This document shows positions 2,142 through 39,800 of a stretch of 56,972 bases of DNA, in pieces. Made by a program: the position numbers and the translations under genes. This DNA comes from a virus, in the IMG/VR virus record IMGVR_UViG_3300043654_000022, positions 1 to 56,972 of that record, one strand, 5' to 3'. The number at the start of each line of letters is the position of its first letter. Positions within the stretch are counted from its first letter, which is position 1. Under the pieces are notes generated by a model, which did no database searches, had not been told where the DNA came from, and was given only the letters and a program-made list of their open reading frames with translations.

Positions 2142-2220
2142 CGTGGAATGGGAGAGTCTGGCCGTCTCCGCTCGTTTTGGAAACGAGAGAACCTTGGTTC
2201 AAATCCAAGTTCCGCGACCA
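2142..2220 (+). tRNA. tRNA-Pro(TGG)
   Basis: Acceptor CGTGGAA/TTCCGCG with one G-U pair, D-arm GGAG/CTCC, anticodon arm CTCGT-TTTGGAA-ACGAG, T-arm CTTGG-TTCAAAT-CCAAG, encoded CCA. Confidence 0.93.
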
Positions 2221-2236
2221 TTTTTGTGGCGTAACA

Positions 2237-2304
2237 GACCACGATTGAAGTAAATCGTTCTCGGACGTAAACCGAGTGGTTGAGTTCAGTTCCACTCTGG
2301 TCCA
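2237..2304 (+). tRNA. atypical tRNA-Tyr-like element (GTA loop, C33)
   Basis: A perfect 5-bp anticodon stem CTCGG/CCGAG closes the loop ACGTAAA, which would present GTA but has C instead of U at position 33. GACCA and TGGTC could close the ends, with GATT/AATC as a D-arm, but no normal T-loop is visible and the 3' part overlaps tRNA-Asn. It may be a decayed or non-canonical tRNA. A normal tRNA-Tyr(GTA) exists at 7004. Confidence 0.3.
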
Positions 2305-2366
2305 ACAGGTAGGACACTTCACTGTTAATGAAGAGGGTCTCCGTTCGAATCGGAGGGGTGGAGCCA
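2291..2366 (+). tRNA. tRNA-Asn(GTT)
   Basis: Acceptor TCCACTC/GGGTGGA, D-stem GTCC/GGAC, anticodon arm CTTCA-CTGTTAA-TGAAG, T-arm CTCCG-TTCGAAT-CGGAG, discriminator G, encoded CCA. Confidence 0.95.
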
Positions 2367-2375
2367 ATTTTTTAC

Positions 2376-2449
2376 GGGGTCGTCGTCCAGTGACAGGACG
2401 CTCGACTGTCTATCGAAGAACGGGGGTTTGATTCCCCTCGGCCCCGCCA
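2376..2449 (+). tRNA. tRNA-Asp(GTC)
   Basis: Acceptor GGGGTCG/CGGCCCC, D-stem GTCC/GGAC, anticodon loop CTGTCTA, T-loop TTTGATT, discriminator G, encoded CCA. The first anticodon-stem pair is mismatched (C-A). Confidence 0.9.
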
Positions 2450-2726
2450 TGATGTTGCAACAGTGCCGCAATGCTCCGGGTCGCCCCCGCGAAGCAGACT
2501 CGCTAGCTGGTTAAGGGTCAGAAGGCACACGGGACTTGAAAAATCCCCAAGGCGCGTCCGGGAACCGCGCGTTGATAAATAGTTCCTCGGATTTGTGTCC
2601 AGCACGGAGATATTATTGTGCTGGCAAAGCCAGTAGTGATTCACGTTTGGTAGCCGAGATAAATTGGTAACTCGGTGCCGACTGCCGAAAGGCCCGAACC
2701 GTGCCTCACGCCAATTGATTTTCTGT
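2450..2726 (+). other. structured inter-tRNA segment without a clean cloverleaf
   Basis: No protein gene is supported here. The stretch is unusually rich in hairpins. GCGCG/CGCGC lies near 2551-2571. A perfect 7-bp CCAGCAC/GTGCTGG near 2599-2624 competes with CTGGC/GCCAG just after it, and CCGAG/CTCGG near 2654-2674 encloses a TTGGTAA loop. A GGGAC-TTGAAAA-ATCCC arm near 2531 looks like a Phe(GAA) anticodon arm. A CCA at 2711 could be a tRNA end, but I cannot close a complete tRNA around it. Confidence 0.4.
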
Positions 2727-2811
2727 AGCCTCTTGGCGGAACGCATACGCTCTGGTTTTAGAAACCAGCGCCCGTAAGGGATTGAGAGTTCAAGTCTCTC
2801 AGAGGCTACCA
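2727..2811 (+). tRNA. tRNA-Leu(TAG)
   Basis: Class II tRNA of 85 nt: acceptor AGCCTCT/AGAGGCT perfect, anticodon arm CTGGT-TTTAGAA-ACCAG, long variable arm, T-arm TGAGAG-TTCAAGT-CTCTCA, encoded CCA. The stretch from 2812 to 2957 holds a GCGGCT/AGCCGC hairpin but no recognised gene. Confidence 0.95.
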
Positions 2812-2957
2812 AGTTTTGGCTGAGTATGCTTCGCCGTGAAAACGGAATGAAGACCAACCAGCGGCTACGAGCCGCAAAGTTTGTACGTACATCGGTAGGG
2901 GGTGCCGCAATCATCCCCAGCCACTCTATTGCAGAGGGTGAAATAAAGAATTTCAGA

Positions 2958-3033
2958 CTCCTCGATTCTCGGACGGACGGGTACCGCACTTCTAAGGCGG
3001 ATTTAGAGAGTTCGAATCTCTCCGAGGGGTCCA
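2958..3033 (+). tRNA. tRNA-Arg(TCT)
   Basis: Acceptor CTCCTCG/CGAGGGG with one wobble, anticodon loop CTTCTAA in a CCGC/GCGG stem, T-arm GAGAG-TTCGAAT-CTCTC, discriminator T, encoded CCA. Confidence 0.92.
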
Positions 3034-3117
3034 GTTTTTTCGTGGGTAGGTGTGACAACCGGGAGGCGAAACGAAAAAGCGGGAATTAGGATATGGTGTC
3101 TTCCCCCGCCGCGATGC

Positions 3118-3174
3118 AATCGTGAATCCGGTCTAGTCAACTGGAGTGCTTTGCACTGTGAGGACGCCACGATT
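3118..3174 (+). ncRNA. tRNA-like three-way junction lacking a T-arm
   Basis: A perfect 7-bp closing stem AATCGTG/CACGATT encloses a 6-bp arm (TCCGGT/ACTGGA, one G-U) in the D-arm position. A second hairpin carries TTTGCAC, the loop sequence of Ala(TGC) tRNAs. There is no T-arm and no CCA. It ends 4 nt before tRNA-Arg(ACG). It could be a minimal or decayed tRNA-Ala or a processing signal. Confidence 0.35.
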
Positions 3175-3178
3175 TTTA

Positions 3179-3253
3179 GGGCTGCTCGTATATCGTATAA
3201 TGCACAGCGCTACGAACGCTGGGAGCGGGGTTAGACTCCCCGGTGGCCCTCCA
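3179..3253 (+). tRNA. tRNA-Arg(ACG)
   Basis: Acceptor GGGCTGC/GTGGCCC with two wobbles, anticodon arm CAGCG-CTACGAA-CGCTG, T-arm CGGGG-TTAGACT-CCCCG with a slightly unusual T-loop, encoded CCA. Confidence 0.9.
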
Positions 3254-3260
3254 TTTTAAT

Positions 3261-3346
3261 CGCCTGCTGGCGGAATTGGCAGACGCAGCGGATTCAAAAC
3301 CCGCCGCCCGAGAGGGCGTTAGAGTTCGAATCTCTAGTTGGCGACC
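3261..3346 (+). tRNA. tRNA-Leu(CAA)
   Basis: Class II, 86 nt: acceptor CGCCTGC/GTTGGCG with one mismatch, anticodon loop TTCAAAA, variable arm GCCGCCCGAGAGGGCGT, T-arm TAGAG-TTCGAAT-CTCTA, encoded CCA. Confidence 0.93.
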
Positions 3347-3379
3347 ATTTTGAAATCCATTGACTACGGTCAGGTGATT

Positions 3380-3799
3380 ATGAACAGCAACCAAAGAAAA
3401 GATGCAACGCTAGGAATGCCTCACGGCACCGCGAGTGGCAGACTTCGGAAGATGATTTTGTTCAATCTTTTGAAAAAGCACGGCGAGAATTCCTGCCATG
3501 CTTGCGGAAAGCCGATTGATTCTGTAGATGCTTTGAGTATTGAGCACAAGAAACCGTGGGAAGGGGTATCGGCTGACTTGTTTTGGGATTTAGAAAACAT
3601 AGCGTTTTCGCATCTTCGATGTAATACTCCGAACCGCCCTTACAACAATGGTGGGTGGAACAAGAAACCAGCCCCAGAAGGGATGGCGTGGTGCATCGGA
3701 CATCAAGTATTCGAACCAGTCGAAAACTTTTGGAAGAACGCAAGTTTTTGGAATGGTCTTGAGAAGTACTGCAAGACGACCAAGATTCGAAATAGATAA
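3380..3799 (+). CDS. HNH endonuclease (homing-type)
   Basis: A 139-aa protein. A zinc-knuckle CHACGK near residue 35 is followed by SIEHKKPW (the HNH histidine), then DLENIAFSHLRCN, the final N/H part of the fold. The spacing is that of phage HNH homing endonucleases, which cut DNA site-specifically and spread by gene conversion. The ATG at 3380 was chosen because earlier starts lie in the preceding tRNA-Leu. It sits between two tRNA-Leu genes and has probably invaded the cluster as a free-standing mobile gene. The C-terminal 45 residues are of unknown role. Confidence 0.85.
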   Translation: MNSNQRKDATLGMPHGTASGRLRKMILFNLLKKHGENSCHACGKPIDSVDALSIEHKKPWEGVSADLFWDLENIAFSHLRCNTPNRPYNNGGWNKKPAPEGMAWCIGHQVFEPVENFWKNASFWNGLEKYCKTTKIRNR

Positions 3800-3806
3800 A
3801 GATTTT

Positions 3807-3890
3807 GCGCGTGTGGCGGAAAGGCATACGCAGGGCACTTAAAACGCCCCGCCGAAAGGCATGAGGGTCCGACTCCCTCGGCGCGCACCA
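3807..3890 (+). tRNA. tRNA-Leu(TAA)
   Basis: Class II, 84 nt: anticodon loop CTTAAAA in a GGGC/GCCC stem, T-arm GAGGG-TCCGACT-CCCTC, acceptor GCGCGTG/GGCGCGC with one mismatch, encoded CCA. Confidence 0.92.
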
Positions 3891-3926
3891 AGTGACAAAG
3901 GCCCGACGCGAGTCGGGTCGGAGATT

Positions 3927-4000
3927 GCACGAATCGGCAAGTGGTAAGCTAGCTGTCTGCAAAACAGCCATCGCGTGTTCGATTCACGCTTCGTGCTCCA
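3927..4000 (+). tRNA. tRNA-Cys(GCA)
   Basis: Perfect acceptor GCACGAA/TTCGTGC, anticodon arm GCTGT-CTGCAAA-ACAGC, T-arm GCGTG-TTCGATT-CACGC, encoded CCA. A strong GCCCGAC/GTCGGGT hairpin at 3901-3918 separates it from the previous tRNA. Confidence 0.95.
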
Positions 4001-4084
4001 AGTTCGTCGGCCCTATTCACGAAGACAAGCCGAATCGTTTCTTCTCCGCGTTGGTAACGAAAACTCAAAGCGGAATATTTTGGT

Positions 4085-4355
4085 AGCGTAGACGAACGCG
4101 GTGAGAAACCCGAGAGGGCTATAAGCCGAGGAAAGTCAGGCCATATCTCAACGCCGCTTTGTGGAAGTTGCAAGACGCGTAAGCGTACGAGTAAGGACCC
4201 ATAACCGAAAGGTTCATTCGAGTGGGGTAACTCTCAGCGGATGTAAGTTCGAATAGGACCGGAGCGCTCGTTGAGCACAATGATGGTCGGGTTGAACGCA
4301 CAGAGGAATGTTCGTCACCGCGCAAGCGGAACAGAAGCCTGCTTATTCGTTGCCA
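4085..4355 (+). ncRNA. rnpB: RNase P RNA (bacterial-type, compact)
   Basis: The catalytic RNA of RNase P, which removes 5' leaders from pre-tRNAs. The universally conserved blocks occur in the right order: GAGGAAAGTC at 4128-4137 (5' strand of P4), GTAAGG at 4191 with CGAAAGGT after it, a GTAACTCTC...TGTAAG...GAATAGG block up to about 4257 (compare GGTAAAC...GCAAG...AAATAGG in bacterial rnpB), AGAGGAATG near 4302, and ACAGAAGCCTGCTTAT at 4331-4346 (3' strand of P4). ACGAA at 4092-4096 can pair with TTCGT at 4346-4350 as P1. The length of about 270 nt is shorter than the roughly 350-400 nt of cellular versions, the middle domain being reduced. It lies inside the tRNA cluster, so substrate and enzyme RNA are co-encoded. 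Exact ends are inferred. Confidence 0.85.
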
Positions 4356-4398
4356 CTAAATTTTAGTTTTGTACGTACGCACGATAAGCGAGTTCAGT

Positions 4399-4473
4399 CG
4401 GTTGCTAGTGTCAAAGTAGCACAGCAGGCTCTTAACCTGACGAGTGAAAGTGCAAGTCTTTCGCGACCGACCA
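4399..4473 (+). tRNA. tRNA-Lys(CTT)
   Basis: Acceptor CGGTTGC/GCGACCG, D-stem GTG/CAC, anticodon loop CTCTTAA in a CAGG/CCTG stem, T-arm GAAAG-TGCAAGT-CTTTC with G instead of T at the second loop base, encoded CCA. Confidence 0.9.
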
Positions 4474-4588
4474 ATTTTCGAAAGAGACGTGCTCCGCGCA
4501 CGAGAGCGAAATAATGCGGCGGCGGGCGAATGACGCCCTCAGTCTACCAAGACGTTACGAAGAGGTGGAATGCCTCAAAAGTTTCTGT

Positions 4589-4665
4589 ACCCGATTATCA
4601 AACTGGTCGTATGAACCTCTCCTACAAAGAGGCTGGCAGAGTTCGATTCTCTGATTGGGTACCAA
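4589..4665 (+). tRNA. tRNA-Val(TAC) with C33
   Basis: Acceptor ACCCGAT/ATTGGGT, anticodon arm CCTCT-CCTACAA-AGAGG, T-arm CAGAG-TTCGATT-CTCTG, encoded CCA. Position 33 is C where U is near-universal. The preceding stretch 4474-4588 contains CGTGC/GCACG and GGGCG/CGCCC hairpins and no gene. Confidence 0.88.
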
Positions 4666-4670
4666 TTTCT

Positions 4671-4763
4671 GTGGGGACGCAGTTCGCGGTAGAGTGAACG
4701 CTTGCGACATCCGGTACCGGACTCGTAAGATGGCGGGGGTGAATGACCCTCGGGTTCCCAGAT
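4671..4763 (+). other. tRNA-like segment with a 12-nt perfect palindrome
   Basis: A GTTC/GAAC arm with an internal GG resembles a D-arm, GGGGG-TGAATGA-CCCTC resembles a T-arm, and GGGGACG/GGTTCCC could be an acceptor. The centre is CTTGCGA/TCGTAAG enclosing the palindrome TCCGGTACCGGA (4709-4720). CTCGTAA looks like a Thr(CGT) loop but lacks a stem. There is no encoded CCA. It may be a tRNA disrupted by a 12-nt insertion. Confidence 0.3.
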
Positions 4764-4766
4764 TTT

Positions 4767-4857
4767 TGTCGGTAGCATCAGTATGCAGCGCGGTTTTATA
4801 AACCGCGAAGCTCCAGATGAGAGCGCCGAGAGTGGGCAGCACACTCACCGACAACCA
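4767..4857 (+). tRNA. atypical class II tRNA, anticodon TAT (Ile, AUA)
   Basis: Perfect acceptor TGTCGGT/ACCGACA, perfect anticodon arm GCGGT-TTTATAA-ACCGC, a long variable arm, T-stem GAGTG/CACTC and encoded CCA. Oddities: a 4-nt D-loop, T-loop GGCAGCA without TTC, and a long variable arm on an apparent Ile tRNA. Bacteria usually read AUA with a lysidine-modified CAT tRNA, so the identity is uncertain. Confidence 0.6.
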
Positions 4858-4859
4858 AC

Positions 4860-4933
4860 GGCCCTGTCGTCTAAAGGCAGGACTTCCGCTTCTCAAGCGG
4901 AAAACGGCGGGTCAGTACCGCCCGGGGCTACCA
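4860..4933 (+). tRNA. tRNA-Glu(CTC)
   Basis: Acceptor GGCCCTG/CGGGGCT with two wobbles, D-stem GTC/GAC, anticodon arm TCCGC-TTCTCAA-GCGGA, T-stem GGCGG/CCGCC with unusual loop GTCAGTA, encoded CCA. Confidence 0.88.
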
Positions 4934-4972
4934 AGTTTGAAAATGTAAGAGGAGCAGTTTTAAGATACTCTC

Positions 4973-5263
4973 ATGGCAAACAACTATAACTCGAATCCGA
5001 TTTTCATCGACAGCATAATGGCGGCAACCGCGAAGAATAGCGGCGCGACAACGACCAACTCGTTTCATATTAAAGAAATCGTGTGGAGCACACCCGGAAG
5101 CACCGCGGCAGATTCCGCCGTAATTCAAGACGGCTTGGGTAATGAAATTTTCGAACAACAATCGGGCCGAGCAGCACCTGAACTATTTAATCCACCGATG
5201 GTTATAGATGATTTCAAAGTAACAACTTTGGCAGATGGACACATTCTGATTTATTTGGTATAA
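4973..5263 (+). CDS. hypothetical protein, 96 aa, virion-type beta protein
   Basis: A beta-rich sequence with NPIFIDS near the start and a central IKEIVW...SAVIQDGLGNEIFE strand-turn-strand pattern. It resembles small phage proteins that accompany structural genes, often annotated only as hypothetical. It is flanked on both sides by tRNA genes and may be an insertion of a structural-type gene into the RNA cluster. Starts with ATG after an AGAGGAG site about 23 nt upstream, so the ribosome site is not ideal. Confidence 0.65.
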   Translation: MANNYNSNPIFIDSIMAATAKNSGATTTNSFHIKEIVWSTPGSTAADSAVIQDGLGNEIFEQQSGRAAPELFNPPMVIDDFKVTTLADGHILIYLV

Positions 5264-5300
5264 AGCATAAGTTCAAAGATTCTCTCGTGTCGCTGTAAAC

Positions 5301-5376
5301 TATCGGCCTGTAGGTGAGCATAGGCGTCCGCTCGATAAGCGGAAGGTAGCTGGTTCGAATCCAGCGACCAGAACCA
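5301..5376 (+). tRNA. tRNA-Ile(GAT) with C33 and weak acceptor stem
   Basis: Anticodon arm TCCGC-TCGATAA-GCGGA gives GAT with C at position 33. T-arm GCTGG-TTCGAAT-CCAGC and CCA are perfect. The 5' end pairs poorly with GACCAGA unless a base is bulged, so either the 5' boundary is wrong or the acceptor is edited or decayed. Confidence 0.75.
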
Positions 5377-5458
5377 ATTTCGAAGCGACACGGGTCCCGC
5401 GTACGCGGTACGTCGTCAACGGTGGGGAAGCCCGATGGGCCACCGAAAAATTTTTAAT

Positions 5459-5532
5459 CGCAGCGGAGAATTGGTATTCAAGTCTGTCTCATAAGCAGAC
5501 CTCCGAAGGTTCGTTTCCTTCCCCTGCGACCA
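5459..5532 (+). tRNA. tRNA with CAT anticodon (Met or lysidine Ile)
   Basis: Acceptor CGCAGCG/CCCTGCG with one mismatch, D-stem GAA/TTC, anticodon loop CTCATAA, T-arm GAAGG-TTCGTTT-CCTTC, encoded CCA. The paired first position argues against an initiator. Upstream (5377-5458) a CGGTGG/CCACCG hairpin is visible. Confidence 0.9.
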
Positions 5533-5546
5533 ATTTAGGAGACCCG

Positions 5547-5885
5547 ATGATTGAACAAGCATGGACTAGTTTACAAGTCGCAGGTCTCGCGGCATTGACG
5601 TTGACCACGGTTCTTACGGCTCTTGCAGACGGCTACACGACGATGATTGGCATAGAGCACGGAGACGCGGAAAAGAATCCGCTTATCAAGTGGCTCTTCT
5701 CCAAACTAGGCCAGCAACTCACGCTGTTCCTCACGACGGGCGCGGTTCTCTTCGGCGGCGCGATTATCGCAGCGCACACGATGGCGGGTGGCTTCTTGTA
5801 CTTCGGCGCTATGACAGTTAGTCGCGGTATCCGCGCGCTGTTGAACTATCGCTTGTTGAAGAAGCAGAAGATTAGTTTGAAGTAA
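5547..5885 (+). CDS. DUF5658-like membrane protein
   Basis: A 112-aa protein with three predicted membrane helices, near residues 13-30, 55-78 and 80-98. An acidic-polar DGYTTMIGIEHGDAEKNPL stretch follows the first helix. The D...G..E.NPL pattern is the hallmark of the small DUF5658 family of unknown function. The start follows an AGGAGACCCG ribosome site. It lies between tRNA genes in the RNA cluster. A membrane role is inferred only from hydrophobicity. Confidence 0.75.
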   Translation: MIEQAWTSLQVAGLAALTLTTVLTALADGYTTMIGIEHGDAEKNPLIKWLFSKLGQQLTLFLTTGAVLFGGAIIAAHTMAGGFLYFGAMTVSRGIRALLNYRLLKKQKISLK

Positions 5886-5988
5886 GATTTTGAGTAGTGC
5901 CACACGACCCGCCTGACGTTTATGGTAGTCGTCCAGATGCTTTGTTCGGATAAAGGTAGTCCGTCCGTGACGCCGCTCCAGTTTCTAT
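5886..5988 (+). other. structured inter-tRNA segment
   Basis: A GAC/GTC arm with a GG-containing loop (5918-5933 region), a CTTTGTTCGGATAAAG hairpin resembling a Pro(CGG) anticodon arm, and CCGCTCCA at the end (5973-5980) suggest a former tRNA. I cannot pair the acceptor or find a T-arm. Confidence 0.3.
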
Positions 5989-6064
5989 GCCTCGTTAGCT
6001 CAGAAGCAGAGAACTCGGTTCTAACCGAGGGGTGGTACGGGTCGCGTCGTACACGGGGCTTCCA
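5989..6064 (+). tRNA. atypical tRNA: Arg(TCT) or amber suppressor (CTA)
   Basis: Acceptor GCCTCGT/ACGGGGC pairs fully, followed by TTCCA. The anticodon arm CTCGG-TTCTAA-CCGAG has a 6-nt loop. Counting from U33 it reads TCT (Arg), while a shift by one reads CTA, which would decode UAG. The T-arm GTACG/CGTAC has an 8-nt loop without TTC. Identity is open. Confidence 0.5.
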
Positions 6065-6071
6065 GTTTTGA

Positions 6072-6145
6072 GCCGATGTAGTTTAGTGACAGAACTTTTC
6101 TTTGGTAAAGAAAAAGCCTAAGTTTGATTCTTAGCGTTGGCTCCA
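6072..6145 (+). tRNA. tRNA-Thr(GGT)
   Basis: Acceptor GCCGATG/CGTTGGC, anticodon arm TTTCT-TTGGTAA-AGAAA, T-arm CTAAG-TTTGATT-CTTAG, encoded CCA. Confidence 0.93.
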
Positions 6146-6154
6146 GTTTTCAAA

Positions 6155-6229
6155 GCCGAACTAGCTCAATGGTAGAGCGGCGCTTTTGTAAAGCGACGGT
6201 TCGCGGTTCAAGTCCACGGTCCGGCTCCA
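6155..6229 (+). tRNA. tRNA-Thr(TGT)
   Basis: Acceptor GCCGAAC/GTCCGGC with one mismatch, D-arm GCTC/GAGC, anticodon loop TTTGTAA, T-loop TTCAAGT, encoded CCA. Confidence 0.93.
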
Positions 6230-6247
6230 GTTTTGTAGCTACAATTT

Positions 6248-6272
6248 GACGGGGTGCCTTGAACACCCCGTC
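6248..6272 (+). terminator. 9-bp GC hairpin after tRNA-Thr(TGT)
   Basis: GACGGGGTG/CACCCCGTC is a perfect stem with a 7-nt loop, followed by TCTCACTCTTTC. The weak U tract means it may attenuate rather than fully terminate. It could also protect the 3' end of the tRNA transcript. Confidence 0.55.
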
Positions 6273-6296
6273 TCACTCTTTCAAGGAGGGTGAAAA

Positions 6297-6866
6297 ATGA
6301 AATATAAATGTGTTCGGTGTGGTGTTGAGTTTTTCAGAAAGCACGGTGCTAGAAAGTATTGCTCCGTCGCCTGTGCCCAGAGAAGACTAGAAGGCGAGTG
6401 CGCCGATTGTAAGAAAGTCATTTCAGCCAATAAGGTCCGATGTGCAGATTGTCGAAACAAGATACGAGATGAGTGGCCCGAAAAACAAAAGATTCAGAGA
6501 AGAGAAAACGCGTATAGAATAAGTCGAGAGCCGCGCGGTCGATTTCACAGGCTTAAGAAAAATTTGAAAGACGAGAAAGTCCCCTCATCAGACCCTATCT
6601 GGAATTTTAATTTTTATGCTGCTTTGATACAAGATGAGCAGTGTCATTACTGTTTCGGTCCTCTGAGTCCGACAGGACACGCGTTAGACAGAGTAATAAA
6701 CAGTTTGGGACACACGGCGGGTAATGTTGTTCCTTGCTGTTAGCCCTGCAACACTATTAAAGGAAAGTACTGGGAGTATGAGCACATGATGTTGCTTGCC
6801 CCCAAACTTAGAGGTCTAAGAATTTCAAAGCTGGAAGCGCCCGATGGCAGGGCACCTCTTTCGTAA
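6297..6866 (+). pseudogene. HNH endonuclease interrupted by an in-frame TAG
   Basis: Starts with a strong AAGGAGGG ribosome site. Residues 4-27 hold a zinc ribbon (CVRCG...YCSVAC), another CADC/CADC pair follows at about 40-55, and the HNH core begins with CHYCFG...ALDRVINSLGHTAGNVVPCC. The frame then meets TAG at 6741-6743 and continues without shift as PCNTIKGKYWEYEHMMLLAPK to TAA at 6866. That continuation is exactly the missing C-terminal half of the HNH motif (CC-x-x-CN-IK). So either one nonsense mutation has killed the gene or the TAG is read through. The extended end overlaps tRNA-Thr(CGT). Confidence 0.75.
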
Positions 6867-6904
6867 AGAGTTCTCCAAAGGTTCAATTCCTTTTTCTAGC
6901 TCCA
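6830..6904 (+). tRNA. tRNA-Thr(CGT)
   Basis: Acceptor GCTGGAA/TTCTAGC, D-stem GCCC/GGGC, anticodon loop TTCGTAA in a CTCT/AGAG stem, T-arm AAAGG-TTCAATT-CCTTT, encoded CCA. The 5' half overlaps the read-through end of the HNH gene. Confidence 0.93.
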
Positions 6905-6914
6905 ATTTTTCTGA

Positions 6915-6988
6915 GCGGGACTGGCGTATTGGCAGCGCGACAGTCTTCCAAACTGTAGGAAAGGGTTCAACTCCCTTGTTCCGCTCCA
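6915..6988 (+). tRNA. tRNA-Gly(TCC)
   Basis: Acceptor GCGGGAC/GTTCCGC, D-stem GCG/CGC, anticodon arm ACAGT-CTTCCAA-ACTGT, T-arm AAGGG-TTCAACT-CCCTT, encoded CCA. Confidence 0.95.
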
Positions 6989-10686: not shown

Positions 10687-11583
10687 ATGCTCTGCAAAGA
10701 GCCGTTCACGGATAGACTCGTGAAGAAACTACTCTTGGCAGCAGCACTGTTGCTGTTGTCTATTCCTATGTTCGCAGCAACAAAGCCGACTCCTCAGTTC
10801 TCCGATACCTTGTCCAAGTCAACCTTGGCCGTGTATGTCGGTAAACAGGAATGCGGCTACAATACTGTGTCCACTTTCTTTGGCAGCACCGATGTGTGGT
10901 CGTGTGAGTTCAAGTCTCGATTCACCTGCACTGCAACCGTGGTTGAAGCGGATGGTCGAGGCAGTTACGCCGGATTGACGGCGGGACACTGCTTCTCGTA
11001 CGAGGCGCTCGACAAGGGATACAAGTACTACGTTTCTGATAATTTGAGTGAACATCCGGTAGTGAGTGAAATCTCTTTACAGAAATTTGCGAACGAGCCC
11101 CGCTATGACTACGCGGTGTTCACCTTTCACAGTTTGAAAAATTATGTGCCCATCGAGTTCCAAAAAGAGGGCGCAGCGCCACCAGTTGGTACTGAGACGA
11201 TGAATGTAAACTTCTCTCTCGGCGTCGTGAAGCAGGTTGTAGAAGGCAAAGTTCTCTCGACTCAAATTACTGGGCAAGAAGATAAAGGTCACGAAAGTTT
11301 GCAAGGTCGTTTCTTCGTAGCCATCGGCATAGGTCCGGGCGCATCCGGCTCCGCTATCGTGGACAAGAAGACGCATAAAATTGTTGGCATGGTTGAAGCA
11401 GTATTCCCAAGTACCCAGATGGCGACAATCGTGGTTCCGATGGGAAACCAATTCGTAAACTTCATGGATGACGCCTCGGCGGGGTTGAAGCCAGAGAAGT
11501 CAAAAGCACATGTTCCGACTTTTCGCGAGTTGGTTGCTGACCTATTGAGCCGCATTTTCAACAAGATAAAATTTTGGAGCTAA
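10687..11583 (+). CDS. secreted trypsin-like serine protease
   Basis: A 298-aa protein with an N-terminal signal sequence (KKLLLAAALLLLSIPMFA, after residue 12). The chymotrypsin-fold triad is visible: His in LTAGHCF (about residue 99), Asp in RYDYAVF (about 139) and Ser in PGASGSAIVD (about 220). Several cysteines in the first 80 mature residues could form disulphides, consistent with export. A GTG at 10720 directly before the signal sequence is an alternative start. It sits between a holin-like gene and terminase. Possible roles are processing host surface proteins or modifying the periplasm; the target cannot be read from sequence. Confidence 0.82.
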   Translation: MLCKEPFTDRLVKKLLLAAALLLLSIPMFAATKPTPQFSDTLSKSTLAVYVGKQECGYNTVSTFFGSTDVWSCEFKSRFTCTATVVEADGRGSYAGLTAGHCFSYEALDKGYKYYVSDNLSEHPVVSEISLQKFANEPRYDYAVFTFHSLKNYVPIEFQKEGAAPPVGTETMNVNFSLGVVKQVVEGKVLSTQITGQEDKGHESLQGRFFVAIGIGPGASGSAIVDKKTHKIVGMVEAVFPSTQMATIVVPMGNQFVNFMDDASAGLKPEKSKAHVPTFRELVADLLSRIFNKIKFWS

Positions 11584-11863: not shown

Positions 11864-14179
11864 ATGTTGACCGCAGAAGAGAGAAAAGAACAAGCCCGCC
11901 GTAGAAAGGCAAATCAGCGTGCTCGTGAAAAAGGTCAACCGGAGCCGTACAAGGTTACTGAGGAAGAAAAGGCTTTTAAGAAAGTGCGCGAGGAGCAATA
12001 CGAGAAAGACCTTGCGTGGGCGCGCCAACAAGATGCGAGTGGGAAGTTTTACAAAGAAGAGTGCCGTGGCACTGAGCAGCTTCTCGCAATCTATTACGGC
12101 AACAACACCGGAGTAGAGGAAGAGGACGACGAAGAAGGGTCGGAAGCCAACAAGAAAAAGAAGGCTCAGCAGAATATGCCGAACCCGGCGATTCAGCCTA
12201 TCCGTATTCTTGCGTCGGAGACTGTCGAAAATGGCGAGCGCGTACTCATCAACCCGGATGACGTGAAGTACCAAGGTTTCTACGAAGTCAGTAAGGTGCT
12301 GGCGTTCCGCGAGTGGTTGGATTATAGAAGCAAAGGCCGCCGCGATTTGTTTTGGCTTTCAGGTCTTCTGGATAAGCCTTTATTTCACGACGTTCATCAC
12401 CTCATTTGCGACATGTTTGTGCAAAAGAATTTCACGGGTAGGTACTATCCGGGGTTCAACCGCCACACCGTGAGCGCGATAATTAATTCACAAGTGCGCT
12501 TTTCAGCCGACGGGTCACCGACCCGAACCGCTTTGATTTTTGCTCCTCGCGGCGTGTGGAAGTCGACTATCGACGGCATCGATGCCGTGCAGTGGATGTT
12601 GAACGCACCAGACGTTCGCATCATGATTATTACGGCGTTTCGCACCCTATCAAAACAGTTTTTGAAGGAAATTAAGAGTTACTTCTATTTGCCGCCGCGC
12701 GGCGAGGCTACGGCATTTCAGTTGTTGTACCCAGAGTACGTTCTTACAGGCTTAGCGGGCCGCTCCAGAGAGCCGCTCGAATGCCCAGCCGCCACATTGA
12801 AATCGAAGGAACCCCACTTGTGGGTCACGTCGATGGAGTCGTCCATTACAGGCCAGCGCTGCGATATTTGTAAAGCAGACGATATCGTGGACCCGAAGAA
12901 TTCGACCGATGAGGTGATGAGACAGGGCCTCGTTGACAAGTTCAACGGAGCGTTGAACCTCACTGAACCTTGGGGATTCATCGACACCATTGGCACACGC
13001 TACTTCACAGACGACTATTACGGCACCCGTATGCAGGCGGATGAAGACGGCACTGTTGCGCCATTCTCTTTGTTGAGTTTGTCGGCGTGGTATCCGAAGC
13101 CGGGATTTGAGGTCACGTATCAGCGCCTTTTGGAAGAGCCGAACGGCATGTCGCAGGTCACCGAAGACATGGTCGATTTGCTGTTTCCATTCAAACTGAA
13201 TTTCGTCACCTTGCGTCGCAAGCTGTTAGACACGAAAGAGCGCAAGTCAACGAACATTCAAAAAGAACGCAATTTCCGTAACCAGTATTTGAACATTGCA
13301 ACTGACCCAGCAGAGGTCAGTGAGTTCACCGTACACTTCGAGATGCAGACGCTCCGCAGCATGACGTATGCATTGTCTGCCGCACCAACGGCAGGCGAGA
13401 CGTTCGTATCGATTGATTGGGCGTACTCGGACGGCAAGACCTCAGACTACTCGGCGTTGGCGGCAGTTCGTCGCCACACACGCGCGGATGGAACTTACGA
13501 GCTAATCGTTTTGGAAGTTCTGTTCGGTAAATGGAAGTCCTCAGTGCTGGCCGAAAAGATTGTTCTGTTCTTGAGAAAGTATCAGCCCGCCGCCACCTTC
13601 ATCGAGAAGGCGCTGGGACATGATTTGCTTCACACACTTCTTGTTTGGAACGCTGGCCGCTACCAAGTTGATTTGAGTCGCGTACAATACGTCCCAACAG
13701 GAAACACAAAGAACGAGAAAGCAAACCGCATCAAGACTTTAGAAGTCCTCGTAGCCGCGGAGCGCCTGCACTTTGTGGCAGGTCCGTGGATTGACGAACT
13801 GTACAAGCAGTTCGAGGGCTTCACAGGCGATACAAAGAAGGGCAGAAAAGACGACATTCCAGACGCAATCTCTCGTGTTAGCAAGACGCTCCCGTCCACG
13901 ATGTTTACGGGAGTCGAGTACGACGAGATAGAAGAGAAGCGTTTGGCAGAAGAAGAAACAAAGCAACTCCGTAAGGCGCACCACTACAACACGTACTTTG
14001 GGACCAACTACGGCGGCACAATAAAGTACCCCGGCCCGCCGTCAACACAGGCCCCAACCGTTCGACAGTGGTTAAACGGTGGAACACTGCCGCCGCTGAC
14101 AATCACCGAAGTTGCACCAGCGAAACCGCAGGACCCGAGAATGAAAATATTCGGCAATAGAGGTCCTTGGAGACTTTAA
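11864..14179 (+). CDS. terL: terminase large subunit
   Basis: A 771-aa DNA-packaging motor. The N-terminal 110 residues are a charged extension with a KKKK cluster. The ATPase has a Walker A-like IFAPRGVWKST near 225-235 and a Walker B-like CDICKADDIVD near 333-343. The nuclease domain shows VSIDWAYSDGKTSDYS with its metal-binding Asp near 518, IEKALGHD near 580 and DDIPDAIS near 663-670. This layout matches the T7-like or podoviral terminase class. It would cut concatemeric DNA and pump it through the portal. The stop overlaps the portal start (TAATG). It is longer than the usual 550-650 residues because of the N-terminal and C-terminal tails. Confidence 0.93.
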   Translation: MLTAEERKEQARRRKANQRAREKGQPEPYKVTEEEKAFKKVREEQYEKDLAWARQQDASGKFYKEECRGTEQLLAIYYGNNTGVEEEDDEEGSEANKKKKAQQNMPNPAIQPIRILASETVENGERVLINPDDVKYQGFYEVSKVLAFREWLDYRSKGRRDLFWLSGLLDKPLFHDVHHLICDMFVQKNFTGRYYPGFNRHTVSAIINSQVRFSADGSPTRTALIFAPRGVWKSTIDGIDAVQWMLNAPDVRIMIITAFRTLSKQFLKEIKSYFYLPPRGEATAFQLLYPEYVLTGLAGRSREPLECPAATLKSKEPHLWVTSMESSITGQRCDICKADDIVDPKNSTDEVMRQGLVDKFNGALNLTEPWGFIDTIGTRYFTDDYYGTRMQADEDGTVAPFSLLSLSAWYPKPGFEVTYQRLLEEPNGMSQVTEDMVDLLFPFKLNFVTLRRKLLDTKERKSTNIQKERNFRNQYLNIATDPAEVSEFTVHFEMQTLRSMTYALSAAPTAGETFVSIDWAYSDGKTSDYSALAAVRRHTRADGTYELIVLEVLFGKWKSSVLAEKIVLFLRKYQPAATFIEKALGHDLLHTLLVWNAGRYQVDLSRVQYVPTGNTKNEKANRIKTLEVLVAAERLHFVAGPWIDELYKQFEGFTGDTKKGRKDDIPDAISRVSKTLPSTMFTGVEYDEIEEKRLAEEETKQLRKAHHYNTYFGTNYGGTIKYPGPPSTQAPTVRQWLNGGTLPPLTITEVAPAKPQDPRMKIFGNRGPWRL

Positions 14180-16323
14180 TGGCAGACCCGTTCGAGAATG
14201 TGGACACAAGCAGCTTAGAGCAGAGTGCCCACGATAAGGCTATTGCTGCACTGGCGCAGACGCCTGCGAACGAGATTACGGACGAGAACACGTATCTTGA
14301 TGCCGACACCGGAACGGTTCAGTTCAACGATACGGCAGCCATCAAGTTGGTCATCGACAACACCGCGATGGCTGACAACTACATGAACATCAACCAGTGG
14401 GCTTCGGGTTGGACAATGGCGGACTTGCTGTACCAGTCACCCGTGTCCGGCAACGGGGACGGCGCTACTGACGTGGCGACCTCCGCGGTTCCGAAGTTCA
14501 TGGTTTCTAATCACATCTCATCGATTGTGCCGAAGATTATGGGCGGCATTTTCTATGAAGACCCGTGCTTCTTGCTGCGCCCGTCACCGGGCACCACAGA
14601 GCAAGTGATTCAAGCGAAGACGGCAATCTTTGAATTTCAATTGAAAGCAATGCGCTTCGAGGAAGAAGTCGAGCGCGGCTTGGAACAGATGGCCTTGTTG
14701 GGCACCGCGATTTGGAAGTGGGGCTACACCGAGTACAGTAAGAAAGAGAAGAAATACAAGCGCTACGCCGACAAGACAACAATTGCCGATGGCGAAGGCA
14801 CAATCGAAATCGATACGCCGGAATCGGATGACTTTGAAATCGAATTTTACGACAAGGAAGTCTCCCACCCTTGGTTGAAGTATTGCGACATCCGCACGGT
14901 CCTCGTGGACCCGGGATGCCGTCAAGGCGACATCCGTTACGCCAAGTGGGTGGTCTACCGCGACTACGCAACGTATCAGGATTTGAACAAGCTGCGCGAC
15001 ATGGAAGGCTACGACATCCCTTCGGAAGAAGTTTTGAAGGCGATGTTTTTGAAGCCTCACACGGGCAGCAAGCCGGACAACATCTCGATGACCATCCCGG
15101 AAGGGATGTTGGGTTATTTGCAGCACGCAACCCCGAGAAACCAAGCAAACACCGCGGACCCAACTCGCGCGCCGTTGGAGATTTTGGAGTACTGGGACAG
15201 CGAGAAAGTTATCGTTGTCTTGATGTATAACAGCAACTACATTCTTATTCGCAACGAGCAGAATCCGTACGGGAAGATTCCTTTCTACTCGGCAAACTGG
15301 CGCAACATCCCGGATTGCTTTTACGGGCAGGGCCTAGGCCTGCTAATTGGTAGCGAGCAAATCGTTGAGCAAGGCGTAACAAACCTCGCACTAGACCTGC
15401 TTGCTTACTGCTTGCAGCCCGTGGCTCTACGTAAGAAAGGATTCAACGCCCCAACGCAGAACACACGATGGGAACAGGGCGGCATTATCGACGTTGAAGA
15501 AGACGTTGAGAAGGCCTTTAAGTTCCTACAAATGCCGACTCCTCCTCAAGAGGCGTTTGCCTTCATCCAGCAATCACAGAGCGCGGGCGCGGCCACATCG
15601 GGCGCGAACGAGCAAGTTATGCAGGGCGCTGGACACGCAGGCATTTCTACGACGGGTATGAGAAGCGGGACGGGAGCAGCGGCGGTTGTTGCAGCCAACG
15701 CATCGCGTCTTGATGGACCAACCGGACGCTTCGTACGCCAAGTGTTCGAACCTTGGTTGCACCAGATGGACGACCTTGACAACGATTTGTTGCCGACCGC
15801 CGTTCTTCGTGACATTTTAGGCGACGAGATTAGTGAGTCCTTCAAGGTTGACCACATTGACTACCGTAACTCGGAAGTCAAGTATGAGGTCTTGGCGGGA
15901 GCAAATCTGGGAGCGAAGAAGGAAATGGCGCAATTCTTACCAGTCCTCATCCAGATGTTCACCAACCCAATCTTTTTGCAGGGTGTCAAGGACGCCGGAC
16001 ACAAGTTCGACGCTCTTGCAATCTTCCAATCATTCTGTGACGCAGCAGGATGGAAGTTCTCTCAGAATTTCGTCGTTCCGATGACGGACCAAGAGAAGGC
16101 AAAAGAACAGGCAAACAGCCCAGCAGCGTTGCAGGCGGCGCAAGCACAAAGCGCCAAGGCAATGCAGGACGCTAAGTTCAAACAAGAACAGACCTTGGAA
16201 AACCAGAAACAACTTGGCAAGGCTGGCAACGAAGCTGTTCGAGCTTCGATTGAGAAATCAACTCAGCCCGAGTACCTAGGTACGAATAATACCGAGGGCT
16301 TCGGCTCAACTACAAGTTTGTAA
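14179..16323 (+). CDS. portal (head-tail connector) protein
   Basis: The ATG at 14179 shares its A with the terminase TAA, so it is preferred to 14167. 714 aa. The central part carries YGQGLGLLIGSEQIVEQG and a long helix, typical of podoviral portals that form the dodecameric DNA channel. The C-terminal 100 residues are Q/A/K-rich and helical, as in the barrel or tail of large portals. Genomic position directly after TerL strongly supports the call. Confidence 0.88.
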   Translation: MADPFENVDTSSLEQSAHDKAIAALAQTPANEITDENTYLDADTGTVQFNDTAAIKLVIDNTAMADNYMNINQWASGWTMADLLYQSPVSGNGDGATDVATSAVPKFMVSNHISSIVPKIMGGIFYEDPCFLLRPSPGTTEQVIQAKTAIFEFQLKAMRFEEEVERGLEQMALLGTAIWKWGYTEYSKKEKKYKRYADKTTIADGEGTIEIDTPESDDFEIEFYDKEVSHPWLKYCDIRTVLVDPGCRQGDIRYAKWVVYRDYATYQDLNKLRDMEGYDIPSEEVLKAMFLKPHTGSKPDNISMTIPEGMLGYLQHATPRNQANTADPTRAPLEILEYWDSEKVIVVLMYNSNYILIRNEQNPYGKIPFYSANWRNIPDCFYGQGLGLLIGSEQIVEQGVTNLALDLLAYCLQPVALRKKGFNAPTQNTRWEQGGIIDVEEDVEKAFKFLQMPTPPQEAFAFIQQSQSAGAATSGANEQVMQGAGHAGISTTGMRSGTGAAAVVAANASRLDGPTGRFVRQVFEPWLHQMDDLDNDLLPTAVLRDILGDEISESFKVDHIDYRNSEVKYEVLAGANLGAKKEMAQFLPVLIQMFTNPIFLQGVKDAGHKFDALAIFQSFCDAAGWKFSQNFVVPMTDQEKAKEQANSPAALQAAQAQSAKAMQDAKFKQEQTLENQKQLGKAGNEAVRASIEKSTQPEYLGTNNTEGFGSTTSL

Positions 16324-36831: not shown

Positions 36832-39800
36832 ATGACCGACCAGAATCAAGATTGGTTTTCACAGAACGCACAAGGCCAGCCTCAACAGCCCGCCCAGCCT
36901 GCGACACCCGCAACAGCAGCGCCAGCAGCCGCGCCTGCGGCAGCCCCGCAGGCTTCGGGAAACTGGTTCACGGATAATGGAGCACCAGTTTCGGCTGCGG
37001 CTCCGCAAACCGGACGAGAGCAAAGTAATGCGGCGGTTGACCGAGAGTTGGCAGCGCACCCACAAGCGCCGGAAAACTATGGCTTCACCTTGGGCAACAT
37101 GTTTCACAAGGCTGTCGGCGGCGCAAAAGACGTGGTTCGTTTCGCTGCCGATGTGTCGAAGGACATCTCGGACGCGAACAAGCCTCTATTCTTTGGCGGT
37201 GCAGAATCCGGGCAGCAAGAGAGCACTTTTCACAAGTATGTGATGGCCCCTGCGGAAGAGCAGAATAAGAAAGGGCAAGAGGGCGACCAGCCGTGGTATG
37301 AGTCAGTAGGTCACTCCATCGCTGCGGCTATTCCGCTCGTTGGTCCGTGGGCGGCATCGGAAGCCGAAAAGGCTGGACAGACGCAAGATATTGGCGGCAC
37401 CGTCGCAGAAGTTGCCGGACAGGCGTTGGCTGGAAAGGGATTGGAAGTTGGCGCTGAGCACGTTATTGGCGGCTCAACCCGAGTTGCCGGGGCTGTGGCA
37501 GAGAAGGTGGCGACGAGATTGGGCGCATCGCCAAAGACAGCGGAGACAATCGGCAACATTGCATCTATTGGAGCAATCAAGCCGTTGGATGCGCACATGG
37601 AAGCGCTCGACGTTGCTGTGGACTCGCATATCTCTGCGGAGAAGAACTTTGACGCGGCGAACAAGGCGGCAGAGGCAGCGCAAGCGCAAGTAGACGCGAA
37701 CCCAAACGACGCGGGAGCGAAGGCGGATTTGGGAGCGGCACAAAAGGACCTTGTCAAGGCTGGCGCGGTTCGCGACTCAGCAGAGGCTGCGGTAGACAAG
37801 ATTCAGGATAATATCCTAAAGAGTTTGACACCCATCGACTGGTCGAAGTTGAGTTTGGAGAGTGTCGCCAACATCACTAATAAGGTGTTGAGTTCCAAAC
37901 CAGCCGACATAGCGAAGGGATTGATGGGCGTGACCTCGGACTTCCAAACTGCGCTGACCCGCTTCGCAAACATGGCGGGGAAGGCATCCGGGGTAAGATT
38001 CCGCGACGCGCTCAAAGACGTTTCGAGCGACATCAAGTCCATCATTAACGCCGACGTTGATAACAAAATTGTTGACCCGAACTCAGCAGCGGATGCCGTG
38101 GACCAGCATATCTATCAGAATATCGAGAACCCGTTGCAGCGTGCATCTGGTGCAACCCGCGATGAAAATGTCCCAGTCGTGGACAACTTCCGCGCACGAG
38201 CGGAAGCCCGCATCGACAAGTACTTTCAAGACAACCCCGGTAAGGCTGGCGGAGTAGACGAAGAGAAGGCCATCAAGGAAAAGTTGTTGGACCGCGTCAT
38301 GCGAGAGCAAGATTTGGGCGGTGATGTAACCACCCCGCGTGAACCAAATTTGTACGAGGCTGAGAGCATCCGTCAAGGCTTGAAGCAGTACGAGCCGAAC
38401 GAATCGAACGGCTTTCGTGCGGCGGCTTACGACCTTGCGAACTTCATGCGCGAGACAATCGACGAGGGCTACGAACAGCGCGGCGTTTCAGGAGTGAAGG
38501 AATCGCGTCTAGTTGAATCGAAACTAATCGACATCTCGAAGGGCCTGCGCAAAGCTCAAACATTGTTTGAAGCACAGCAGGCCGTTCCTGCGATGCAGAA
38601 GATTTGGCATGGCGCGAAAGCTGCGGCTTACGTCGCAACCCTTGGCTCTCTCCTACTCCAAAGTCCACATGGCGCACTTATAGGATTGGGGGGATTGTGG
38701 GAAGACCTCTACAAGGCGAACACGAAAGATTTGAGCGGCAACTTGGCGCGCGCTCGTGAACTCGCGGGCCGTGAACCGGAAGCAACGGCGACCGTACCAG
38801 ATATTAACCAGCAGCCGCCAACCAGCGGAGCGGGTCCCTCTATCGGTAGTGGTCCTAAGCCGACCCCTCCAAGCGTTCCGCCCCCTACACCGCCAGAGGC
38901 TGCGGTACGTCCACCGATTAACCACACACTGAACGGAGAACTCGCTGCGTACTTCCCAGACGCGACCCGTGGAACGACGCCGGACGAGTACAATGCCTTG
39001 ATAGACCGATTCAACGCGGATTATCAAGCGAAGCTGCGCGGCGTTACTGACTTCAAGGCGAAGAACCCGGACCAGCCTCTTCCGGAAGGTGTTGCGGAAG
39101 AGTGGGCAGCGGCTAAGCAGTTGAAGGGCACGATTGAAAGAGAGGGCGCGAAGGAAGACGCTAAAATTGAGCAGGAGAACCAGAAGCGCCAACAGCAATA
39201 CCAGAAGGAACTTCTCAAGTATCAGGCGAAGAACCAAGCAGAGATTACGAAGGCACAAGCAGAGACTGCGGCGAAAGCGGAGCAAGAGAAGGCCGCTGCC
39301 GAACAAGCAGAGAAGAACCGCGTTGCTGCAATCTTGGCAGACAAAAAAGTTGCGCACGCTCCGTTTGTTAACGCTACGGAGCCTTCGACCTTGTCGGCGC
39401 GCGAGGGCACTCACGAAGTTGGCGGTCACATCCTTGTAGCGAACGCAGTGGGGCTGAACCCGACAAAGTTCTTGTCGGAGTTCCACCCGGAACTGGAGGG
39501 TACCGACTCCCACGCTCAAGTTCAAACGGACAGCAGCGGCGCTCAAGAGGGTCCAGTTGGTATCGCCCAGCGCGTGCTGACCCACCTCGGCGGTCCCGCG
39601 TGGGACGAAGTTCACAACAACATTCCTGCGGACGTGAACGACAGAGCCAGCGGCGATTTTGATGAAGCGAAGCGCATTCTGCGCGAAGAGAGCAGCTTGA
39701 ACCCGCGTCAGCAGAAGATGCTGTATGACGCGTTGTATGACAAGGCGAAGGAAATTGTATCGAATCCAGACGCTGTGGCTATCGCGAAAACGAACGCCGC

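Follow-up and report, generated by a model that had tools for sequence, protein, structure and literature searches.

Introduction

Few ribozymes are, to our knowledge, regarded as universal genes of cells; RNase P RNA is one of them. Its bacterial class A form (Rfam RF00010) is about 370 nt long and combines conserved regions I and V (CR I, CR V), a P4 helix with a bulged U, a P6 pseudoknot, a GGU motif in L15 and the helix order P1-P2-P3-P5-P7-P8-P9-P10-P11-P12-P15-P16-P17. A complete specificity domain (S-domain) is usual and not universal, P12-P14 being missing from some known RNase P RNAs (PMC8172020). Compact RNAs of the CPR/Patescibacteria include various members without P12-P14 and P16-P18, score below the usual model cut-offs, and comprise forms without the UGG/GGU motif (PMC8172020). 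The accessible part of a report on Mycobacterium austroafricanum and M. sp. YC-RL4 describes extra rnpB-like genes with an altered specificity domain and an adjoining endonuclease gene; they lie on bacterial chromosomes, are suspected of horizontal transfer, and no phage origin or function is claimed for them in that part (PMC9569102). Gut phages encode theta ribozymes, which adjoin tRNA genes and have been proposed to act in phage tRNA maturation (PMC10879173). These RNAs are small, HDV-like and cut themselves a single time, in cis, at the 3' end of the tRNA; RNase P works on the 5' end, in trans and with turnover. In the open full-text literature, which leaves out most preprints and subscription articles, no description of an RNase P RNA encoded by a phage was found; one may have been published before. 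The main texts of a huge-phage survey and a jumbo-phage review are likewise silent on RNase P.

Here we describe an RNase P RNA gene in a virus record of 56,972 bases (the window, meaning the whole stretch of DNA that was analysed). The RNA shares with class A the conserved regions, P4 with its bulged U, the P6 pseudoknot, the L15 GGU and the helix order given above. It differs in being phage-encoded, in lying inside a tRNA array, in its length of ~275 nt, in the absence of P13, P14 and P18 and, in most relatives of its terminase clade, in rewritten P4 pairs (GAGGAAGUUC/GGCUA). It keeps the GGU motif, which some CPR forms are reported to lack, and the CPR/Patescibacteria RNAs are cellular genes outside tRNA arrays. 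Some phages may thus bring a multiple-turnover ribozyme along with its tRNA substrates. Such RNAs, in which the core is frequently reduced or rewritten, are natural minimal RNase P RNAs for work on structure and activity. The reason for which phages have tRNA arrays, and the way these arrays mature while host gene expression is shut down, become open to experiment.

The phage record and its tRNA array

The gene lies in a co-oriented tRNA array upstream of genes for phage packaging and structure. The main features of the window are as follows.

2142 to 6988, plus strand: tRNA array, 16 tRNAs predicted by ARAGORN and tRNA-Lys(CTT)
3338 to 3799, plus strand: HNH endonuclease gene in the array (PF01844, E 7.6e-6)
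3927 to 4000, plus strand: tRNA-Cys(GCA), directly upstream of the RNase P RNA (ARAGORN)
4081 to 4355, plus strand: RNase P RNA gene from P1 to P1, ~275 nt (RF00010 match 4080-4360; covariation with relatives)
4399 to 4474, plus strand: tRNA-Lys(CTT), directly downstream (Rfam match 4399-4470, missed by ARAGORN; anticodon read by hand)
11864 to 14179, plus strand: terminase large subunit (phrog_38, E 1.5e-45), which marks a tailed phage and defines the relatives
14167 to 16323, plus strand: portal protein (phrog_1216, E 6.1e-21)

A head protein gene also lies downstream of the array with the terminase and the portal, and the portal is 35% identical over 81% to that of Tunturiibacter phage Tunturi_3. 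The record is that of a tailed phage. The 3' CCA is encoded in all 17 window tRNAs checked.

Some other features of the record were recorded in passing. An HNH-like open reading frame at 6297-6860 (plus strand) contains a single TAG within a conserved motif (GNVVPCC*PCNTIKG) and is open to at least 6860; it is either a broken homing-type endonuclease or a case of amber readthrough. A trypsin-like peptidase gene at 10687-11583 (plus strand; PF13365, E 2e-8) lies just 5' of the terminase gene, an unusual position beside packaging genes. At 335-385 a TTATTAAAAAATGTAGAG-like unit occurs three times in tandem within an open reading frame.

Identification of the RNase P RNA

A preliminary description, made from the sequence, had read positions 4085-4355 as a reduced RNase P RNA within a viral tRNA cluster and had proposed an Infernal search as a check. 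A cmscan of 4001-4500 gave a significant match to RF00010 (RNaseP_bact_a) on the plus strand at 4080-4360, covering model positions 1-367 of 367 with 80.9 bits and an E-value of 5.1e-25. The 5' start proposed in that description falls a few bases short. All of the conserved blocks named in that description are present on the plus strand and in the correct order: GAGGAAAGTC at 4128-4137, GTAAGG in P10/11, GAATAGG at ~4250-4257 and ACAGAAGCCTGCTTAT at 4331-4346. The block pair GAGGAAAGTC..ACAGANNCNNGCTTA has a single occurrence in the window. The covariance model, both pseudoknots and covariation agree on the identity, and the phage RNA is a member of a known ribozyme family.

The Rfam gathering threshold for RF00010 is 100 bits, an annotation cut-off and no biological definition. 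The window RNA, at 80.9 bits, does not reach it, and routine annotation would therefore skip the gene; at the threshold, only tRNAs were returned for the window. Lowered thresholds were likewise needed for the RNase P RNAs of the CPR (PMC8172020). Plain minimum free energy folding of 4078-4362 (z -1.25) is uninformative because the RNA is pseudoknotted.

Structure of the RNA

Helix coordinates were read from the sequence by hand and then checked. P1, P2, P4-P12, P15-P17 and a hairpin resembling P19 can form, P4 and P6 as pseudoknots. Paired cells are counted over the aligned relatives.

4081 to 4088 with 4348 to 4355, plus strand: P1, 8 of 8 standard pairs, two of them G-U (sequence)
4091 to 4097 with 4310 to 4316, plus strand: P2, 100% of cells paired, double-sided change in 3 of 7 pairs
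4128 to 4141, plus strand: conserved region I and 5' strand of P4, GAGGAAAGTCAGGC, with bulged U 4136 and partner 4337-4344
4142 to 4144 with 4241 to 4243, plus strand: P5
4149 to 4152, plus strand: 5' strand of P6, CAAC, forming a pseudoknot with L17 GTTG at 4270-4273; 84% of cells paired in 11 sequences
4154 to 4157 with 4237 to 4240, plus strand: P7
4154 to 4240, plus strand: P7 and reduced specificity domain (P8, P9, P10, P11, minimal P12); P8, P9, P11 and P12 covary
4247 to 4297, plus strand: P15-P16-P17 with L15 CGGGU; P15 and P16 covary
4247 to 4250 with 4294 to 4297, plus strand: P15
4257 to 4260 with 4285 to 4288, plus strand: P16
4318 to 4329, plus strand: P19-like GNRA hairpin CCGC GCAA GCGG between P2 and P4 (sequence)
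4331 to 4345, plus strand: conserved region V and 3' strand of P4, ACAGAAGCCTGCTTA (sequence, cmscan)

That P1 and P4 can pair had been stated in the preliminary description, which made the identification depend on P4 and the conserved pseudoknot; P4 (4133-4135 and 4137-4141 with 4337-4344) and the P6/L17 pseudoknot can both form. The P6 (L17) pseudoknot and the P15-P16-P17 arm, typical of class A, are both present. The motifs of the catalytic core are kept (CR I, CR V, AATAGG and the L15 GGU), as are CR I and J18/2-type elements near known RnpA contacts. In RNase P RNAs the L15 GGU motif pairs with the 3' RCCA of tRNA (see also PMC8172020), and the one in the window RNA is expected to do so; L15 CGGGT is invariant among 11 relatives.

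The specificity domain is a P7-P12 stub and not the complete P7-P14 domain with paired T-loop motifs. P12 is a 4-bp hairpin. According to cmscan, P13/P14 and the canonical CR II/III strand are gone, 28+49 model positions being represented by 14+12 nt (26 nt), and P18 is absent, with 0 nt at its 24 model positions. The canonical GGUGAAA..GGUAAGAG strand was not found in the window RNA. A T-loop-like CATTCGAG occurs at ~4215-4222 in the P11/12 region, and one UUCRANN is present in the window and in most relatives; judging from its resemblance to such motifs, it may replace the elbow-binding T-loops.

The gene in related phages

Relatives were picked by their terminase (46-54% identity), independently of the RNA. 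All six terminase relatives whose records contain the tRNA array upstream of the terminase (G001, G004, G047, G048, G049 and G050) have an RF00010 match of 78-102 bits in it; the relatives that gave none have short records, records beginning close to the terminase, or only a distant relationship. G001 and G004 are identical across the RNA region, and G048 and G049 share scores and tRNA coordinates, so that the six records correspond to about four distinct phages. The RNA follows tRNA-Leu/Cys and precedes tRNA-Lys in the window, G001, G047 and G048; tRNA-Cys is directly upstream in G001 as in the window, and tRNA-Lys is the next tRNA downstream in three relatives. In G050 the RNA lies between tRNA-Trp and tRNA-Ser. 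The location between viral tRNA genes, here tRNA-Cys and tRNA-Lys, was thus correctly recognized in the preliminary description and recurs in phages found by their terminase. The gene is phage-encoded and not host contamination, being at the same locus in relatives that were identified without it.

For Tunturi_3, the closest cultured relative, the searched half (50,000-97,608) contains no RNase P RNA match. This acidobacterial phage has an unannotated permuted tmRNA match at 38173-38397 (RF04321, 63 bits).

Covariation

Five distinct RNAs were aligned over 57 pairs, including both pseudoknots. The pairs are formed in 96.8% of the cells, and 31 of the 57 show double-sided change, a number reached by none of 500 shuffles (mean 12.4). 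Sliding the partners by 1-3 columns lowers pairing to 31-39%; the structure was taken from one aligned sequence, which this control alone would favour, and the double-sided changes are independent of that choice. In a larger set of 11 RNAs, double-sided change was found in 35 of 50 pairs, again reached by 0 of 500 shuffles. P4 and P6 are unscored as pairs in the nested Rfam model, and their covariation is therefore a separate test. In the five aligned RNAs all cells of P4 are paired, with double-sided change in 4 of its 8 pairs; in the 11 sequences P4, built from CR I and CR V around its bulged U, likewise has all cells paired and shows double-sided changes. This pattern of substitution indicates that the RNA fold is under selection.

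Compact RNase P RNAs in other viral and cellular sequences

We scanned IMG/VR for the exact pattern GAGGAAAGTC..ACAGANNCNNGCTTA with a spacer of 149-241 nt. The scan recovered 40 further viral contigs with a canonical compact RNA, 39 of which are confirmed by RF00010. In 32 of the 40, three or more tRNAs on the same strand lie within 3 kb of the RNA, mostly at a distance of 13-100 nt. Across 37 distinct RNAs of viral origin, the unconstrained P4 positions pair 144 times out of 148, compared with an average of 107 and at most 120 after shuffling. Terminase matches vary widely across the viral records, which indicates that several phage lineages are involved. With a spacer of 242-272 nt there are 30 more viral contigs, 17 of them in arrays by the same criterion; of the remainder, some may be host DNA beside prophages. 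The recurrence of the RNA in dozens of uncultured phage sequences suggests that phages supply a tRNA-processing ribozyme of their own. Two of the arrays with an RNase P RNA also hold a tmRNA gene predicted by ARAGORN (L009, 1822-2187; L013, 2368-2685).

As a cellular control, the same pattern with a spacer of 180-210 nt was sought in 84,980 cellular species genomes. It gave 72 compact loci, mostly from Patescibacteria and other MAGs, every one of them with fewer than three tRNAs within 3 kb. Of these cellular genomes 22 were checked, and for most of them the compact RNA is the sole RF00010 match. One bin, an Eremiobacterota MAG, has two full-length RF00010 matches of 267 and 198 bits (contigs C13 and C128); contamination or a different replicon may be the source of the second.

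A BLAST search of the window RNA against phages and plasmids returned nothing similar, and a nucleotide search of 50,697 phage records gave no clear isolate phage with the gene. Matches of other RNase P queries in INPHARED were set aside as bacterial or flanking DNA, or as full-length RNAs in unverified faecal contigs outside tRNA arrays. Microcystis phage MaAM05 (MW495066.1) was also rejected as an isolate example: its 252-bit RNase P RNA at 115284-115683 has bacterial-type neighbours (fabI, glyS, mtgA), and the record looks partly or wholly bacterial.

Proposed function

We propose, with a probability of roughly 80%, that this tailed phage encodes its own class A-type RNase P RNA, which matures the 5' ends of phage tRNAs together with host RnpA. 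The proposal builds on the identity of the RNA, its fold and the selection on it, its location and recurrence, the encoded CCA with the matching GGU, and the lack of a detectable RnpA. With a complete catalytic domain and a stub of a specificity domain, the RNA would be co-transcribed with its neighbours as part of long precursors from the array. It would fold round P4 and the P6 pseudoknot and bind RnpA of the host, none being detectable from the phage. L15 would then pair, through its GGU, with the CCA encoded at the 3' ends of the phage tRNAs, whose 5' leaders the RNA would remove. Maturation of phage tRNAs could in this way be kept up when expression of host rnpB fails or becomes limiting late in infection. 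That the gene is transcribed, that its RNA joins host RnpA and is catalytic, and that phage pre-tRNAs are its substrate, we infer. The reduced S-domain is compatible with activity, since catalytic domains without an S-domain cleave pre-tRNA at lower affinity (PMC11143913).

The phage RNase P RNA could instead serve mainly in something other than the trimming of tRNA 5' ends, namely titration of host RnpA, competition with host RNase P that shifts the tRNA supply, or action on another phage transcript. The S-domain, reader of the tRNA elbow, is reduced here, and E. coli RNA without S-domain residues 94-204 still cleaves pre-4.5S RNA and loses pre-tRNA-Tyr-Su3 (PMC11143913). We consider this role unlikely, because the gene lies inside tRNA arrays in most phages found, and because a pure decoy would not need CR I, CR V, AATAGG and the L15 GGU, all of which are kept.

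The preliminary description had left room for use of the host protein subunit or of none. RnpA (PF00825) was matched in none of 15 records (the window and 14 others), several of them fragments, and in 10 of 14 control genomes. The use of the host protein fits this absence, the pairing with host RnpA being our own deduction; a phage RnpA may exist, either diverged and unrecognised or outside the partial records. The same absence can be read as a sign of a ribozyme that is protein-free in vivo or has a phage partner unrecognised as RnpA. Bacterial RNase P RNAs can work alone in vitro at high salt, but this activity requires non-physiological ionic conditions. With RnpA supplied by the host, and with the elements near the RnpA contacts kept, such a reading seems very improbable. 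That the RNA is a host rnpB fragment in phage or assembly, passenger DNA or contamination functionless in the phage, has some precedent in the host rnpB found in flanking or bacterial DNA of phage-labelled INPHARED records (Salmonella, Acinetobacter, MaAM05), but is largely refuted by the position conserved in terminase relatives and the helices kept by compensatory changes, and retains hardly any likelihood given phage genes all around with no cellular neighbours, a compact form and the absence of similar plasmid or phage records in BLAST.

A variant P4 helix

Four of the five clade RNAs, all but that of the window, have P4 as GAGGAAGUUC or GAGGAACUUC, opposite GGCUA or GGGUA. In this variant there is still room for the bulged U, the adjacent A-U and G-C pairs being replaced by G-C or C-G and U-G. 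A shifted P4 bulge in the relatives was considered and rejected, as the bulge can keep its position with compensated neighbouring pairs.

A scan for the variant P4 matched 44 viral contigs, a few of them already among the earlier ones, and in 30 of the 44 three or more tRNAs on the same strand lie within 3 kb. The unconstrained pair beside the bulge is complementary in 32 of 33 distinct variant cores (shuffles: mean 21, maximum 28). Five (L193, L204, L206, L207 and L219) look like chance because their P4 bases fail to pair. RF00010 also matches 20 of 36 variant records searched; those without a match may be too diverged or false. With compact spacing, the variant pattern turned up twice among 396 genomes of a single phylum, the one to which a Bryobacterales genome belongs; both matches were judged to be chance since the sequence is unlike RNase P RNA.

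We tentatively suggest, at somewhat less than even odds, that phages hold an old, phage-specific and independently evolved branch of RNase P RNA. The specificity domain of its members would be minimal and rebuilt, and many lineages would have GAGGAAGUUC/GGCUA and not GAGGAAAGUC/GCUUA beside the P4 bulge. In many lineages of tailed phages, tRNA maturation would then no longer depend on the RNase P RNA of the host.
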